Source: a virus. Taken from it: 24,992 bases of DNA. The first letter of the stretch is position 1; the number at the start of each line of letters is the position of its first letter. The translations under genes and the position numbers were made by a program. Positions 16,093 through 20,429 of this stretch are shown here, piece by piece. The DNA lies in IMG/VR virus record IMGVR_UViG_3300020469_000247, positions 1-24,992 of that record, one strand, 5' to 3'. The notes below the pieces were generated by a model, which saw nothing but the letters and a program-made list of their open reading frames with translations, had not been told where the DNA came from and searched no databases.

Positions 16093-16356
16093 ATGGAAAT
16101 CATTACTGATGAAAGAATTATCGAGTTGTTGATGATGCTTGTTGGATCAGCTTTACTGGGATTAGTCGGGTTTGTGTGGAAAATAAGCCACAAGGTTTCA
16201 GAAAATTCTAAAAGAATAGATAGTTTATCAAGTATGCAGCAAAAGGATATTGCTCAGCTTAATCGAGATATAGACATGATTATTTCAAAAGTAGACAAAC
16301 AAGGAGAGTGGGCTACTAACAGAATGATGTCAATAGCAAAAGAAATGCCCAGATAA
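16093..16356 (+). CDS. Small membrane protein with N-terminal TM and coiled coil (lysis cassette, possible i-spanin or accessory holin)
   Basis: 87 aa; ribosome site GGGGAA about 7 bases before ATG 16093. One membrane segment at about residues 10-30 (IELLMMLVGSALLGLVGFVW) is followed by a soluble helical part with heptad-like spacing (KVSENSKRIDSLSSMQQKDI and on). The layout, short N-terminus, one TM, coiled coil, is that of inner-membrane spanins (Rz-like) but is shared by other small phage membrane proteins. It is the first gene after a strong terminator, together with two more membrane proteins. No endolysin is present in the window. Confidence 0.75.
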   Translation: MEIITDERIIELLMMLVGSALLGLVGFVWKISHKVSENSKRIDSLSSMQQKDIAQLNRDIDMIISKVDKQGEWATNRMMSIAKEMPR

Positions 16357-16368
16357 AGGATTATATCC

Positions 16369-16776
16369 ATGAGCATGGAATTAATTTCAATGTTAGGAGG
16401 AGGCCTTGCAGGTTTCATATTCCGTTTTATGGCAATGTCTGTGGAAAATCAACAGAAAACTACAGAGATGCTTTTACAAAAACAAACAGCAGCAGATGAC
16501 TCAGCTGATAGGGCTGCTAAGCGTGGCACTCATTTCGGTAGGCGGGTGCTCGTCTTCACCGTCCTCTGGGTACTCGCTGTCGCCCCTTTCGTCGGCGCCC
16601 TCATCGGAGTTGATACGTGGGTTGAAAACGAACGAGCCCCTTGGGACCTCCTTGGAATTTTCTCAGGTGGGTGGACTAAACTCCAAGGAATCATCGTGTT
16701 ACCTGAGCTTCGCGCTGCTCTTCTTGCCGCCGTTGGTTTTTACCTTGGCGGTTCTTCCATTGCGAGAGGTAAATAA
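16369..16776 (+). CDS. Putative three-TM holin
   Basis: 135 aa; AAAGGA lies about 10 bases before ATG 16369. Three hydrophobic segments: about 3-21 (MELISMLGGGLAGFIFRFMA), 58-80 (VLVFTVLWVLAVAPFVGALI) and 107-129 (VLPELRAALLAAVGFYLGGS), with a charged helix between the first two. From memory, the C-terminal part (KLQGIIVLPELRAALLAAVG) resembles the 3-TM holin family linked to gene-transfer-agent release. A holin would form inner-membrane lesions to time lysis. Its codons become GC-rich from about 16525 onward, exactly where a second reading frame (16496-16804) overlaps it; dual coding would explain this better than foreign origin. Confidence 0.6.
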   Translation: MSMELISMLGGGLAGFIFRFMAMSVENQQKTTEMLLQKQTAADDSADRAAKRGTHFGRRVLVFTVLWVLAVAPFVGALIGVDTWVENERAPWDLLGIFSGGWTKLQGIIVLPELRAALLAAVGFYLGGSSIARGK

Positions 16777-16804
16777 GAAAAATGAACGAGAATCAGATGT
16801 TTGA
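16496..16804 (+). CDS. Nested lipoprotein-like ORF inside the holin gene (candidate outer-membrane or unimolecular spanin)
   Basis: In the +1 frame, ATG 16496 begins MTQLIGLLSVALISVGGC, a hydrophobic signal-like stretch ending in a lipobox-like VGGC (Cys codon 16547-16549). A Ser/Pro-rich stretch (SSSPSSGYSLSPLSSAPSSE) follows, as in many small outer-membrane spanins. Near the C-terminus comes a second hydrophobic segment (about 72-92) and a charged tail. The predicted signal overlaps a hydrophilic part of the holin-like frame (DRAAKRGTHFGRR), so its hydrophobicity is not simply a shadow of a TM segment. Nested Rz/Rz1-type genes are a known design; a lipoprotein with a C-terminal TM is the layout of the T1 unimolecular spanin. 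Weak points: no clear Shine-Dalgarno before ATG 16496, no basic residue in the n-region from this start, and Gly instead of Leu/Ala around the lipobox. A TTG at 16406 in frame does follow AGGAGGAGG. Confidence 0.5.
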   Translation: MTQLIGLLSVALISVGGCSSSPSSGYSLSPLSSAPSSELIRGLKTNEPLGTSLEFSQVGGLNSKESSCYLSFALLFLPPLVFTLAVLPLREVNKKNERESDV

Positions 16805-17018
16805 TTTACTTCTCCTAGCTATTGGTATTGTTGCCGCTATGGTAGGAGCAGTTTTATACCGTGTATGGGCAATACCAGCCATGCAGCAAAAGATAGAAAT
16901 TATGGACGAGGAACAAGCCAAAGCTCGTCAACACATTCATGATATGCGAAATACTCTACACGAACACGATACAAGGATCACTGTTCTTGAGGAAACAAAA
17001 CAAGAAACCGTTTCGTAA
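16782..17018 (+). CDS. Small membrane protein with N-terminal TM and coiled coil (possible i-spanin)
   Basis: 78 aa. One membrane segment at about residues 8-30 (LLLLAIGIVAAMVGAVLYRVW) is followed by a charged helix with heptad spacing (QQKIEIMDEEQAKARQHIHD and on to LEETKQE). It overlaps the last 23 bases of the nested lipoprotein frame and starts five bases after the holin-like stop. This N-in, C-out helical layout fits an inner-membrane spanin partner for the nested lipoprotein. The same layout in the 87-aa gene at 16093 means either could be the partner. No family was recognised with certainty. Confidence 0.75.
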   Translation: MNENQMFDLLLLAIGIVAAMVGAVLYRVWAIPAMQQKIEIMDEEQAKARQHIHDMRNTLHEHDTRITVLEETKQETVS

Positions 17019-17077: not shown

Positions 17078-17215
17078 ATGCCAATGGTAGGAAAAAAGAA
17101 ATTTGATTATAGTGCTAAAGGTAAAAAAGCAGCAAAAAGTTACGCAGCTAAATCAGGTAAAAAGATGACTAAAACTAAGCGTAAGGCTGGCATGGGTAAA
17201 AAGAAAGGCTACTGA
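17078..17215 (+). CDS. Basic microprotein, 45 aa (first of the chain)
   Basis: ATG 17078 follows AAAAAGGAAAAG. The product starts MPMVGKKKFDYSAKGKKAAK and ends KAGMGKKKGY, with about 40% Lys/Arg and few hydrophobic residues. A second ATG two codons on (17084) is possible. Its stop overlaps the next start (TGATG). From memory, small proteins with a K-rich FDYSAKGKK-type motif occur in marine phages, but no function is known to me. Binding to DNA or RNA is the natural guess from charge alone. Confidence 0.75.
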   Translation: MPMVGKKKFDYSAKGKKAAKSYAAKSGKKMTKTKRKAGMGKKKGY

Positions 17216-17376
17216 TGGCCAAGAAAAAGAAAAAAGCTAAGCGAGACGCTTGTTATAGTAAAGTAAAAAGCCGTTATACTAAATGGCCTAGTGCTTATGC
17301 TTCAGGAGCTTTAGTTAAATGCCGAAAGGTAGGGGCTAAAAACTGGGGTAATAAAAGCAAGGGTAAGAAAAAGTAA
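17215..17376 (+). CDS. Basic microprotein, 53 aa, with DACYxKVKxRYxxWPSAYASGALVxCRK motif
   Basis: Starts in the previous stop (TGATG) and ends in the next start (TAATG). Between Lys-rich ends it carries a compact, well-conserved-looking core: DACYSKVKSRYTKWPSAYA then SGALVKCRKVGAKNWGNKSK, with two Cys (13 and 36). I recognise this core as a small uncharacterised family carried by marine phages and by large algal viruses; I believe it, or the 78-aa neighbour, is listed as DUF5872, but I cannot confirm. The aromatic core suggests a real mini-fold, unlike the other, mostly disordered, members of the chain. Function unknown. Confidence 0.8.
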   Translation: MAKKKKKAKRDACYSKVKSRYTKWPSAYASGALVKCRKVGAKNWGNKSKGKKK

Positions 17377-17612
17377 TGGCTAAGAAAAAATCAGCTACTT
17401 CAGGTGGTCTAAGAAAATGGTTTGGTCAAAATAAAGGCAAGGGGTGGGTTGATTGTAAAACAGGAAAACCTTGTGGTCGAAAATCTGCCAAAGGAAAAAG
17501 TAAAAGACCTTACCCTGCTTGTCGACCTACAAAATCACAATGTACTTCAGCTAAAAATAAGAAAAAGGGACCTGCTAGGATCTCTTGGAAAAAAGGAAAG
17601 AAAAAGAAATGA
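17376..17612 (+). CDS. Basic microprotein, 78 aa, with GLRKWFxxxKGWVDxKTGKPCGR-type motif and four Cys
   Basis: Coupled to its neighbour by TAATG at the start and ATGA at the stop. It contains GLRKWFGQNKGKGWVDCKTG then KPCGRKSAKG and RPYPACRPTKSQC. The Cys residues are at 27, 33, 49 and 56, a spacing that could bind one zinc ion but is not a classical finger. The core resembles a short family I know from marine phages and giant viruses (uncharacterised). The ends are Lys-rich. It is likely a nucleic-acid-binding protein, by charge only. Confidence 0.8.
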   Translation: MAKKKSATSGGLRKWFGQNKGKGWVDCKTGKPCGRKSAKGKSKRPYPACRPTKSQCTSAKNKKKGPARISWKKGKKKK

Positions 17613-17740
17613 AAAAAACTAAGAAGAAACTAGTTGGCAGGAAGGCTAAATTGGCTGCAATGACTCCCCCTTATAACAAAGTTACTAGAGGGGACGTAAT
17701 CACAGCTGCTAAAAAAAGTAAGCGGGGTAAAAAGAAATGA
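17609..17740 (+). CDS. Basic microprotein, 43 aa
   Basis: ATG 17609 overlaps the previous stop (ATGA), with AAAGGAAAG about 9 bases upstream. The sequence is MKKTKKKLVGRKAKLAAMTP followed by PYNKVTRGDVITAAKKSK and a Lys-rich end. The KLAAMxPPYxKVTRxDVIxAAKK pattern is one I have seen in other marine phage microproteins. A short amphipathic helix (TRGDVITAAKKS) is the only structure visible. Its stop overlaps the next start (ATGA). No function known. Confidence 0.75.
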   Translation: MKKTKKKLVGRKAKLAAMTPPYNKVTRGDVITAAKKSKRGKKK

Positions 17741-17865
17741 AGACTACTTTTAAATGTGCTTGTGGTACAACTACGCGGGCTACGGAAAAAGATGCTTATA
17801 AAGCCATTAATAAAAAAGCTGGTTTAAAAAAAGACTACAAACCCACGGGGAAGAAAAATGGCTAA
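17737..17865 (+). CDS. Basic microprotein, 42 aa, with CxC motif
   Basis: ATG 17737 overlaps the previous stop. The sequence opens MKTTFKCACGTTTRATEKDA and continues with a helix-prone YKAINKKAGLKK. The Cys-x-Cys at 7 and 9 followed by Gly suggests half of a zinc ribbon, so a dimer or partner could complete a metal site; this is speculative. It overlaps the next gene by eight bases, the deepest overlap between adjacent members of the chain. No family recognised. Confidence 0.7.
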   Translation: MKTTFKCACGTTTRATEKDAYKAINKKAGLKKDYKPTGKKNG

Positions 17866-18130
17866 AAAAGGAAAGTCTAGAAGTAAAGGAGCCATGAAAG
17901 GTTGCAATATAGGTAATGGCTGTAAATCAAAAAGAGGAGGCCTTACTGCTAAAGGCCGTCGAATGATTAACCGAAAGACTGGCAGCAAGCTTAAAGCTCC
18001 TCAACCTGGTGGTGGCTCAAGAAAGAAAAGTTATTGTGCAAGATCTGCGGGACAAATGAAGAAGTTCCCAAAGGCTGCAAAAGATCCCAATAGTCGTCTT
18101 CGTAAAGCAAGACGACGGTGGAAATGCTAA
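17858..18130 (+). CDS. Basic microprotein, 90 aa, GGLTAKGRR family (DUF6321-like)
   Basis: Starts within the previous gene with GGGGAAG about 7 bases upstream. The core GGLTAKGRRMINRKTGSKLK (27-46), then APQPGGGSRKKSYCAR (47-62) and KAAKDPNSRLRKARRRWKC (72-90), matches my memory of a small family found in phages and giant viruses (GGLTAKGR motif, DUF6321); this copy is a short form. Cys at 16, 22, 60 and 90. Highly basic throughout. The function is unknown; the frequent occurrence beside packaging or structural genes suggests a virion or genome-associated role. Confidence 0.82.
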   Translation: MAKKGKSRSKGAMKGCNIGNGCKSKRGGLTAKGRRMINRKTGSKLKAPQPGGGSRKKSYCARSAGQMKKFPKAAKDPNSRLRKARRRWKC

Positions 18131-18143
18131 AACAAAGGAAAGA

Positions 18144-18272
18144 ATGTTGGATTTTAATATCGAAAGTATTTTAGGAACTGTATTTTATAGTATCGTAATT
18201 TTCGGACTAGGTGCATTATCTGGTAAAAAGATTTGGAACTGGGTCCGTAAGTTTTTCCCTTGGAATAAGTAA
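18144..18272 (+). CDS. Single-TM microprotein, 42 aa
   Basis: AAAGGAA (18134-18140) precedes ATG 18144 by a few bases. One membrane segment (ESILGTVFYSIVIFGLGALS, about 7-26) is followed by a short, basic, Trp-rich tail (KKIWNWVRKFFPWNK) that should lie on the cytoplasmic face. It is the only hydrophobic member of the chain. The stop overlaps the next start (TAATG). A small holin-like or membrane-anchoring role is conceivable; nothing in the sequence decides it. Confidence 0.7.
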   Translation: MLDFNIESILGTVFYSIVIFGLGALSGKKIWNWVRKFFPWNK

Positions 18273-18421
18273 TGGCTAAGAAACCCACAAAAAAGTTTGC
18301 TCCTCATACAATGTATTCTAAAGACGGTAAAGGAGTAAAAGCCAATACCTTTAAGAAACACCTTGAGCTTAAAAAGAAAGGGTACGGTCATAAAAAGCCT
18401 TCAACTAAAAGGAAAAAGTAA
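18272..18421 (+). CDS. Basic microprotein, 49 aa
   Basis: Begins and ends in TAATG overlaps. It contains PHTMYSKDGKGVKANTFKKH followed by LELKKKGYGHKKPS, a pattern (M-Y-x-x-G-x-x-x-x-A-x-T-x-x-x-H-x-x-x-x-x-x-G-Y-G-H) that I have seen in small marine phage proteins. Aromatic and Gly spacing suggests a small beta-hairpin plus helix. The last member before the terminase genes, translationally coupled to the small terminase candidate. Confidence 0.75.
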   Translation: MAKKPTKKFAPHTMYSKDGKGVKANTFKKHLELKKKGYGHKKPSTKRKK

Positions 18422-18621
18422 TGGACTACAAGACCCTAAACGAAAAGCTGTATTGGTCTCTAATGAATGATTTAGAAGATCCTGAACAACGCAATCCTCA
18501 ATTGTATAAAGTTGTTTTAGATGTTCTTAAAGAAAATAGAGATCAACTAGAGCTTACCGAAAGAAATATTGATAAGGTAATTGAAGAAAAGATTGATCTT
18601 CCATTTAAGTTTGGAACTTAG
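18421..18621 (+). CDS. Putative small terminase subunit
   Basis: 66 aa, coupled to the previous gene by TAATG, with AAAAGGAAAAAG before the start. It is acidic and helical: DYKTLNEKLYWSLMNDLEDP, then PQLYKVVLDVLKENRDQL, and a short LPFKFGT end. In this family of T7-like phages the small terminase (DNA recognition, T7 gp18, 89 aa) is a short helical protein directly before the large subunit, as here. The LPF-type ending after a helix pair fits. No obvious DNA-binding motif, so the call rests mainly on position and layout. Confidence 0.6.
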   Translation: MDYKTLNEKLYWSLMNDLEDPEQRNPQLYKVVLDVLKENRDQLELTERNIDKVIEEKIDLPFKFGT

Positions 18622-18701: not shown

Positions 18702-20429
18702 ATGCCAATACCCGAAATAAATAAAGATCTTCTTCCAAAGAATATCCCAGAAGATATAACTGAAGACTTTAGAAATCATTTGCATCAGTGCATGAAGTAC
18801 TTAGGATTAGGTGAGCCTACTCCTCTTCAGTATATGATGGCAGAAAGATTGCAAGACGGTAGAGACGAGTTTCAGCTACAGGCTGGTAGAGGAGCGGGAA
18901 AATCTGTATTAACATCTATGTTTGCTTCGTGGCTTCTACTTAGAAACCCTAATCATGTCATAATGGTGTTATCGGCTACCGCTATAAAGAGTACTGAGTT
19001 TATCAGTATGACTCGTAAAATATTAACTCTTGTCCCATATATGAAGCATTTAGAACCCGGACCTAATACTAGAGATTCCGCTTTTGGTTTTAATGTAGAA
19101 TGTAGACAGACTACGGGACAAGATCTTTCTGTTTTTTCAAGAGGTATCTCGTCACAGATTACTGGATCACACGCAGATACGGTTATTTTAGATGATGTAG
19201 AAATAGAGAAAAACTCAGAGACGGCAGAAGCAAGAGAGAAACTATTAAACAAGGTATGGGAAATTGAACAAATCAGAAACCCCGGTAAAGGACTTATCCG
19301 AATTTTGGGAACTCCTCAAAGCTCAGAGTCTATCTATAATAAACTGCGAGATGCATATCCATGCTTTAAGTTCCCAGCGCTCTTCCCAGATCCAGATTTT
19401 CCGGGACAGATGCGCGATGTTGATACTGATATTCTTGAACTGGGCCTCGAAGTTGGTGAGTCTACACAACCAGAGCGCTTTCCGGATGACCTTCTCGCAG
19501 AGCGTAAGGCAAGAATCGGACCAAAACTATTCAGTCTGCATTATCACTTGGACACCTCTTTGGCTGACCAAGATCGTTACCCGCTTCGGCTTAACGATCT
19601 TATCGTGTTGGATATTGACCACGAAGTCCACCCAGATAAAATAGTATGGTGTTCTGAACCCGCTAAAGATTTACCCTCGTTTGGTTTAAACGGGGATGTT
19701 CTTTCAAAGCCTATGTGGACAGCTGATTCGTATACGCCTTACAAACACACCGTAATGCATATAGACCCCTCTGGTAGAGGTAACGATGAAACGTCTGTTT
19801 GCATAGCCTCTTTTGGAAATGGCTATGTTTGGATACACGAACTTTGGGGTTACGACGGGGGCTATGAAGATGCTTTATTAGAGAAAATAGTAAAGCTTGC
19901 TTTAGATTACCCTGGATTAAAACTCATTAGGTACGAAGAAAACTACGGTGATGGTATGTTTGGTTCTTTGTTAATGCCTCATATATCTCGTTTAGCTGGA
20001 TCTCAAATAGGAATAGAAGGCTATCGAGTAAGTGGTATGAAAGAAGCTCGGATTATAAAAGTACTGGAGCCTGTAATGGCTCAGCATCGTCTGTGCGTTG
20101 ATCGAAAGGTTATTAGGCAGGAAGAGACTCAAAGACAGTTAACCCGCCTGTACGAGCGTCGTGGTGCTTTGAAACACGATGACCGAGTAGATGTTTTAGC
20201 AGCCTCAGTGGAATACTTTGAACACACTCTTGGTATTGATGTTGATGAAATGATTGCAAAGAACGAACACGCACAACAAATGAATCTCATTGAAAGCTGG
20301 GAAGACGATAACCGCCGAGCCCCGTTGATACTGGGAGATCGTATGTCCGGCGCATCAAGAATTAGAACACTTAATCCTCAAGAAACAAATAAAACTGTTT
20401 TTGGACAAAGGCGAAGAAAATGGCGTTGA
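18702..20429 (+). CDS. Large terminase subunit (packaging ATPase/nuclease, T7 gp19-like)
   Basis: The motor that pumps DNA into the head and cuts it. At 575 aa it is near T7 gp19 (586 aa). Walker A is AGRGAGKS (about 61-68), Walker B VILDDVE (161-167), coupling motif GTPQS (203-207). The C-terminal RNase H-like nuclease shows MHIDPSGRGNDETSV (352-366, first acidic residue Asp355), YEENYGDG (411-418) and KHDDRVDVLA (about 500-510). All key acidic residues are present. Ribosome site AGGAG is 9 bases before ATG 18702. A patch of GC-richer codons (about 19376-19620) differs from the rest of the gene, perhaps a recombination segment. The 3' end overlaps the next gene by ten bases. Confidence 0.97.
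   Translation: MPIPEINKDLLPKNIPEDITEDFRNHLHQCMKYLGLGEPTPLQYMMAERLQDGRDEFQLQAGRGAGKSVLTSMFASWLLLRNPNHVIMVLSATAIKSTEFISMTRKILTLVPYMKHLEPGPNTRDSAFGFNVECRQTTGQDLSVFSRGISSQITGSHADTVILDDVEIEKNSETAEAREKLLNKVWEIEQIRNPGKGLIRILGTPQSSESIYNKLRDAYPCFKFPALFPDPDFPGQMRDVDTDILELGLEVGESTQPERFPDDLLAERKARIGPKLFSLHYHLDTSLADQDRYPLRLNDLIVLDIDHEVHPDKIVWCSEPAKDLPSFGLNGDVLSKPMWTADSYTPYKHTVMHIDPSGRGNDETSVCIASFGNGYVWIHELWGYDGGYEDALLEKIVKLALDYPGLKLIRYEENYGDGMFGSLLMPHISRLAGSQIGIEGYRVSGMKEARIIKVLEPVMAQHRLCVDRKVIRQEETQRQLTRLYERRGALKHDDRVDVLAASVEYFEHTLGIDVDEMIAKNEHAQQMNLIESWEDDNRRAPLILGDRMSGASRIRTLNPQETNKTVFGQRRRKWR

Follow-up and report, generated by a model that had tools for sequence, protein, structure and literature searches.

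Comparative sequence analysis leads us to conclude that positions 16496 to 16804 of a 24,992-base virus record (the whole stretch of DNA analyzed, referred to below as the window) form a real overprinted gene, which lies in the +1 frame within a gene for a holin-like membrane protein and encodes a predicted lipoprotein with a C-terminal transmembrane (TM) segment. The best explanation of this locus, to which we give moderate confidence, is that one interval would produce two proteins, a holin-like protein from frame 0 and an overprinted lipoprotein that would act as a spanin of the unimolecular type. The broader proposition, that overprinting of a holin-like gene gave rise de novo to a unimolecular spanin gene in one phage clade, with the disruptors of the inner and outer membranes sharing DNA, is advanced tentatively, and we give it somewhat less than an even chance.

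Organization of the locus

The window carries genes for portal, major capsid, tail, and terminase proteins, and the outer membrane-protein gene sits between the tail genes (5') and the genes for the small and large terminase subunits, TerS and TerL (3'). The features of this region are as follows:

16093 to 16356, + strand: upstream gene coding for an N-terminal TM segment and a coiled coil, restricted to the closest relatives
16369 to 16776, + strand: outer (frame 0) gene for a holin-like 135-aa protein with three hydrophobic helices (phrog_38283, no assigned function)
16396 to 16408, + strand: alternative start of the nested gene, TTG 16406 with a GGAGGA Shine-Dalgarno sequence 4 nt ahead of it; the product would have 132 aa and a long basic n-region
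16496 to 16804, + strand: nested +1-frame gene, the proposed spanin, for a 102-aa predicted lipoprotein with a C-terminal hydrophobic segment, recognized by its openness and Cys conservation, by synonymous constraint, and by simulations
16496 to 16546, + strand: predicted signal segment MTQLIGLLSVALISVGG
16547 to 16549, + strand: TGC codon of the putative lipobox Cys (Cys18)
16634 to 16645, + strand: E-P-L-G motif in the linker
16703 to 16762, + strand: LSFALLFLPPLVFTLAVLPL, the C-terminal hydrophobic segment, with a charged tail after it
16782 to 17018, + strand: downstream gene coding for an N-terminal TM segment and a coiled coil, an i-spanin-like candidate found in every clade locus readable there
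18421 to 18621, + strand: TerS-like gene (phrog_1351, E value of 3.5e-5)
18702 to 20429, + strand: TerL gene

The nested frame opens at ATG 16496 and closes with the stop codon ending at 16804, beyond the end of the outer gene; its last 23 nt are shared with the next gene. The product of the nested frame consists of MTQLIGLLSVALISVGG, the Cys residue, a Ser/Pro-rich linker, LSFALLFLPPLVFTLAVLPL, and the charged tail, a list of parts that was given correctly in a first-pass annotation of this DNA and held on re-reading of the sequence. The signal segment lies, as also stated there, over hydrophilic codons of frame 0, which read DDSADRAAKRGTHFGRR. The linker comprises about 50 aa and is reduced to about 27 aa in the relative L015 (L015:827-1162), where the loop joining helices 2 and 3 has lost 23 codons in phase, which shortens both overlapping proteins together and leaves both frames intact. 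In several relatives, the tails that follow the C-terminal helix are rich in basic residues (RSREGGRRCRRK), which would fit a cytosolic C-terminus.

The outer protein was modeled by AlphaFold2 as three helices (residues 3 to 52, 55 to 79, and 112 to 126) at low confidence (mean pLDDT of 66), and its profile search returned phrog_38283 alone, with no holin-family match and no Pfam match above the cutoff. Its topology and genome position suggest that it may be a holin; when examined for the N-out, C-in orientation, it offered the three low-confidence helices and an orientation read from basic residues alone. The possibility that frame 0 encodes an atypical i-spanin was ruled out by the three helices and by the 69 relatives (see below) without the nested frame.

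At 17078 to 18421, in the interval that separates the lysis-like locus from the terminase genes, the window contains a row of tiny Lys/Arg-rich ORFs (42 to 90 aa), one of which (17858 to 18130) matches DUF6321 with an E value of 3e-15; related arrays of small Lys/Arg-rich ORFs are present in its relatives. Immediately 5' of the holin-like gene, several relatives (L008:192-806, L010:3381-3989, and L014:1783-2424) encode a serine protease similar to ClpP and head maturation proteases that is apparently exported, with a signal-like N-terminus and the sequence IDSPGGSAYAG.

Distribution of the nested frame

Scans of IMG/VR yielded a clade of 16 distinct loci, the window included, whose products are 52 to 100% identical to the outer protein, and many more loci with identity of 48% or less. 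The outgroup comprises 69 such loci from the same outer-gene family outside the clade. The nested frame is open in all 16 clade loci, from about codon 43 to its end (one locus, L005, stops at a contig edge and does not cover the final codons), and in each of them the Cys residue, the Gly at position -1, and the Ser at position +1 are retained; Ser-Ser follows the Cys in 15. Homologues that have lost the nested frame or its Cys, which the first-pass annotation had named as evidence against its reading, are thus absent from the clade. The third frame is open in none of the 16 loci. The nested frame is open in none of the 69 outgroup loci, where the homologous stretch contains 1 to 11 stop codons in each; these include Verrucomicrobia phage P8625 (outer protein 46% identical, 6 stops in the nested frame) and phage C75C1 (41% identical, 7 stops). 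Since it is open in 16 of 16 clade loci versus 0 of 69 outgroup loci, the nested frame is a property of a single phage clade.

Other searches added little to this set. A scan of the genome_contigs collection for relatives gave a single outgroup match, and a single-query scan with L016 gave only the self-match. The nested protein had no match in a tblastn search of phage records and no meaningful match in PHROGs or Pfam, their spanin families included.

Constraint on the overlap

Synonymous-codon identity among the relatives is higher in the overlap (0.57) than in outer codons 2 to 42 (0.43) or in TerL (0.39). The excess constraint sets in at the nested ATG. Along the outer gene, the profile of this identity stays at a z-score of about 0 up to codon 45 and then forms three peaks, over the signal segment and lipobox (z of 5 to 8, codons 41 to 75), the E-P-[LHP]-G motif (z of 4.6, codons 86 to 100), and the C-terminal hydrophobic segment (z of about 8, codons 106 to 130). 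The excess of synonymous constraint that had been proposed as a check for positions 16496 to 16776 is therefore strong and falls in exactly that interval. At the lipobox, the outer-frame codons for R59-V60-L61-V62 (CGG/AGG-GTG-CTC-GTC) are nearly invariant, and codons 60 to 62 are GTG-CTC-GTC in 15 of the 16 loci despite a locus GC content that ranges from 37 to 57%. At the E-P-L-G motif, the outer frame reads CGA GCC in 14 of the 15 alignable relatives.

In null simulations, a consensus in which the nested frame was open was evolved on a tree, with the outer frame as the sole source of constraint; the model was simple, with a fixed tree, site-wise allowed residues, and one kappa. At the rate fitted to codons 1 to 42, an average of about 0.6 to 0.66 of the 16 tips remained open and 5.5 retained the Cys; out of 300 runs, not one ended with all 16 tips open. 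A conservative null that used the overlap's own codon usage left an average of 6.1 of the 16 tips open and 3.4 with the Cys, which never survived in all 16 tips of a run. Against a shadow null, likewise with the overlap's codon usage, the Kyte-Doolittle (KD) hydrophobicity of the signal h-region is 2.95 (expected, 1.20 ± 0.33) and that of the C-terminal segment is 2.27 (expected, 1.05 ± 0.22), each about five standard deviations over the expectation. The concern that the hydrophobicity of this frame could be a mere shadow of pyrimidine-rich TM codons is not borne out for either segment. Taken at the level of sequence comparison, these results show dual coding, a conserved signal and Cys, and a conserved C-terminal hydrophobicity.

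Two further measures were considered and set aside. An OLGenie-style dNN/dNS ratio of 0.77 (0.56 to 1.07) is not decisive and fails to distinguish the overlap from the control region upstream; dNN/dNS and dSN/dSS were dropped as proof, the 1.7 SS sites per pair being too few. The switch to GC-rich codons at the start of the overlap, which the first-pass annotation had linked to dual coding, is found in the window (GC3 of 0.31 in codons 1 to 42 and 0.52 in codons 43 to 125) and is absent from GC-rich relatives such as L008 (0.60 and 0.61), which rules it out as a general signature of dual coding.

Lipoprotein features and translation start

In a pattern-based reading, every one of the 16 clade sequences has [GAS]-C after a hydrophobic stretch free of charges; the window has SVGGC and the best instance is LVAGC. 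The clade includes lipoboxes, such as LVAGC and SVVGC, that conform to the pattern [LVI][ASTVI][GAS]C (PMC6139136). When the window and five related genomes (contigs of 42 to 70 kb) were scanned in six frames for a lipobox pattern combined with hydrophobicity, each gave one to four candidates, and the nested ORF was the only candidate common to all six and the sole candidate in the window and in G001. The same scan of the plus strand of the 69 outgroup loci gave three matches, none of them at the position of the nested ORF. From the window and IMG/VR sequences aligned as input, AlphaFold2 modeled the nested protein, at low confidence, as a signal helix, a disordered linker (pLDDT under 50), and a C-terminal helix (residues 61 to 86). 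Both the lipoprotein nature of the nested product and its C-terminal TM segment are well-supported predictions. Cys residues besides the putatively lipidated one occur at position 68 in the window, bordering the TM segment, and in the linker in L008 to L012; L035 has none.

Some relatives encode other lipoprotein-like products. In two of the genomes, G003 and G004, a small entericidin-like lipoprotein (CNT..GL), a competing candidate for the outer-membrane factor there, is encoded far from the holin-like gene and near a destabilase-type lysozyme (G003:5006-5706 and, in G004, L106:12266-12691), a candidate exported endolysin whose G004 copy has an N-terminal hydrophobic segment. Directly 3' of the holin-like gene in L086, an outgroup locus without the nested frame, a separate gene (L086:3454-4053) codes for a 199-aa protein with a signal-like start and the sequence LMQCGC, possibly a stand-alone lipoprotein.

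ATG 16496 has no Shine-Dalgarno sequence, in agreement with the weak ribosome site noted earlier as a caveat, and is conserved in 9 of the 16 clade loci. L006 and L007 have a TTG three codons upstream of this position, and L008 to L012 have no ATG, GTG, or TTG near it, only CTG or ACG; an in-frame ATG, GTG, or TTG is present within 51 codons before the Cys in every clade relative. Translation may start at ATG 16496 or, alternatively, at TTG 16406 with its strong Shine-Dalgarno sequence. A TTG at codon 13 is found in 12 of the 16 loci, mostly behind a GGAGGA or GGTGGT-type site. The bases of the TTG 16406 site double as conserved outer-frame Gly-Gly-Gly-Leu-Ala codons, and outer codons 13 to 42 show no extra synonymous constraint.

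Proposed function and alternatives

The first-pass annotation had proposed a holin with an embedded spanin. Its lipoprotein with a C-terminal TM segment stands, and the names holin and spanin are suggested by topology and position only. We infer that the best reading of the nested protein is a spanin, built either as a unimolecular spanin (u-spanin) or as an o-spanin whose partner would be encoded by the downstream single-TM coiled-coil gene. In the proposed mechanism, frame 0 would give a holin-like integral membrane protein, and the +1 frame, created once by overprinting in one phage clade, would give a small lipoprotein that is exported by the Sec pathway, lipidated at Cys18, and, with Ser at position +2 of the mature protein, sorted to the outer membrane. 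Its C-terminal hydrophobic helix would be anchored in the inner membrane, with the charged tail in the cytosol, and the removal of murein by the endolysin would let this inter-membrane link collapse and the membranes fuse, as proposed for spanins. In this scheme, lipidation, the topology of the nested protein, fusion of the membranes, and a holin role for the outer gene are all predictions. The position of the locus, as in T7, favors a spanin; a linker of this length is short for a protein that bridges the periplasm, and the linker Cys of some homologues speaks against the u-spanin layout.

In a two-component arrangement, which has a smaller though appreciable probability, the nested ORF would be an o-spanin, the product of 16782 to 17018 its i-spanin, and the C-terminal segment membrane interacting and not an anchor. 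The TM and coiled-coil gene abuts or overlaps the end of the nested ORF in the clade, the summed periplasmic length would suffice, and proteins of this type have Rz-like spanin PHROG matches, weak as these are (best E value of 0.0018, for the L015 copy). However, coiled-coil matches are promiscuous, tblastn of the downstream protein against phage records found no match, similar genes also adjoin outer-family members in which the nested frame is absent (L055, L083, and cobaviruses), and the conserved C-terminal hydrophobicity would be left unexplained. Moreover, periplasmic Cys residues are ubiquitous in two-component spanins (PMC6139136), whereas the window copy of the downstream protein and most of its homologues have no Cys.

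The nested lipoprotein could also be real and serve a role other than lysis, which we regard as improbable. Phages encode lipoproteins for superinfection exclusion or envelope protection, and adjacency to a gene for a putative holin is only circumstantial evidence; on the other hand, the locus lies among late genes, in the tail-terminase interval where T7 keeps its lysis genes, and a C-terminal TM segment is unusual among exclusion lipoproteins. An antiholin-like, two-helix membrane regulator with an incidental Cys would account for the two hydrophobic segments, the overlap with a holin-like gene, and the uncertain lipidation, but is very improbable given the invariance of the Cys, its flanking Gly and Ser, and the outer-frame codons at this site. 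That there is no gene at all, only a chance shadow frame or a conserved nucleic acid element, has slighter prospects still: it would fit an ATG without a Shine-Dalgarno sequence and the hydrophobic look that pyrimidine-rich TM codons may take on in a shifted frame, but not the contrast between clade and outgroup, which the simulations fail to reproduce, the frame-specific avoidance of stops, or the three protein-shaped peaks of constraint.

A literature search with scant coverage of subscription papers turned up no account of a spanin encoded within a holin-like gene. If the spanin reading is true, the locus represents a further nested architecture, one in which the outer gene is not that of an i-spanin. 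A survey of 677 phage genomes left 91 without a spanin, 20 marine cyanophages among them, and remarked that gene callers regularly overlook overlapping lipoprotein genes (PMC6139136); concealment of the spanin within a holin-like gene could account for some of these genomes and supplies a search rule. The locus is also a well-bounded case of gene birth by overprinting: with 16 relatives that have the nested gene and 69 that do not, its origin can be placed on the tree and its cost to the older gene measured.

Comparison with known lysis systems

The position of the locus between tail and terminase genes resembles that of T7 genes 17.5 to 18.7, where the T7 lysis genes lie among the late genes. 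The outer protein shares with class I holins, such as lambda S105, three hydrophobic helices, a basic loop before helix 2, and a basic C-terminus, but has no sequence or profile similarity to them.

Spanins are classified as embedded, overlapped, separated, or unimolecular, the embedded ones being those in which the o-spanin gene sits within the i-spanin gene (PMC6139136). Like the embedded spanins of lambda and T7 (Rz/Rz1) and N4 (gp60/60a), the nested protein is a predicted +1-frame lipoprotein inside another lysis-type gene with a Ser/Pro-rich disordered mature part. Unlike in these systems, the outer gene encodes a three-helix membrane protein without the i-spanin layout, and 69 of its relatives lack the nested frame; the nested protein also has a C-terminal TM segment, and the i-spanin candidate, if any, is downstream. 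As a candidate partner, the downstream protein fits in layout, with an N-terminal TM segment followed by a coiled coil, has Rz-like matches that are weak, and lacks in the window the periplasmic Cys through which two-component spanins form disulfide-linked homodimers.

Unimolecular spanins comprise T1 gp11 and 12 other families (Kongari et al. 2018, PMC6139136). The nested protein resembles them in combining an N-terminal lipobox signal, a linker, and a C-terminal TM segment in one protein, and differs in being encoded inside a holin-like gene and in having no detected sequence similarity to them. T1 gp11 family members have a beta-rich periplasmic domain, whereas the low-confidence model of the nested protein shows a short disordered Ser/Pro linker in which no such domain was seen. 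Some of its homologues have a linker Cys, whereas the 58 catalogued u-spanins have no periplasmic Cys besides the lipidated one (PMC6139136); because the latter is an empirical feature of that set, the resemblance in layout is to be read as working like a u-spanin, not as membership in the class. By analogy, the nested layout would be that of a unimolecular, T1 gp11-type spanin, with an o-spanin acting together with the downstream gene product as the close alternative.
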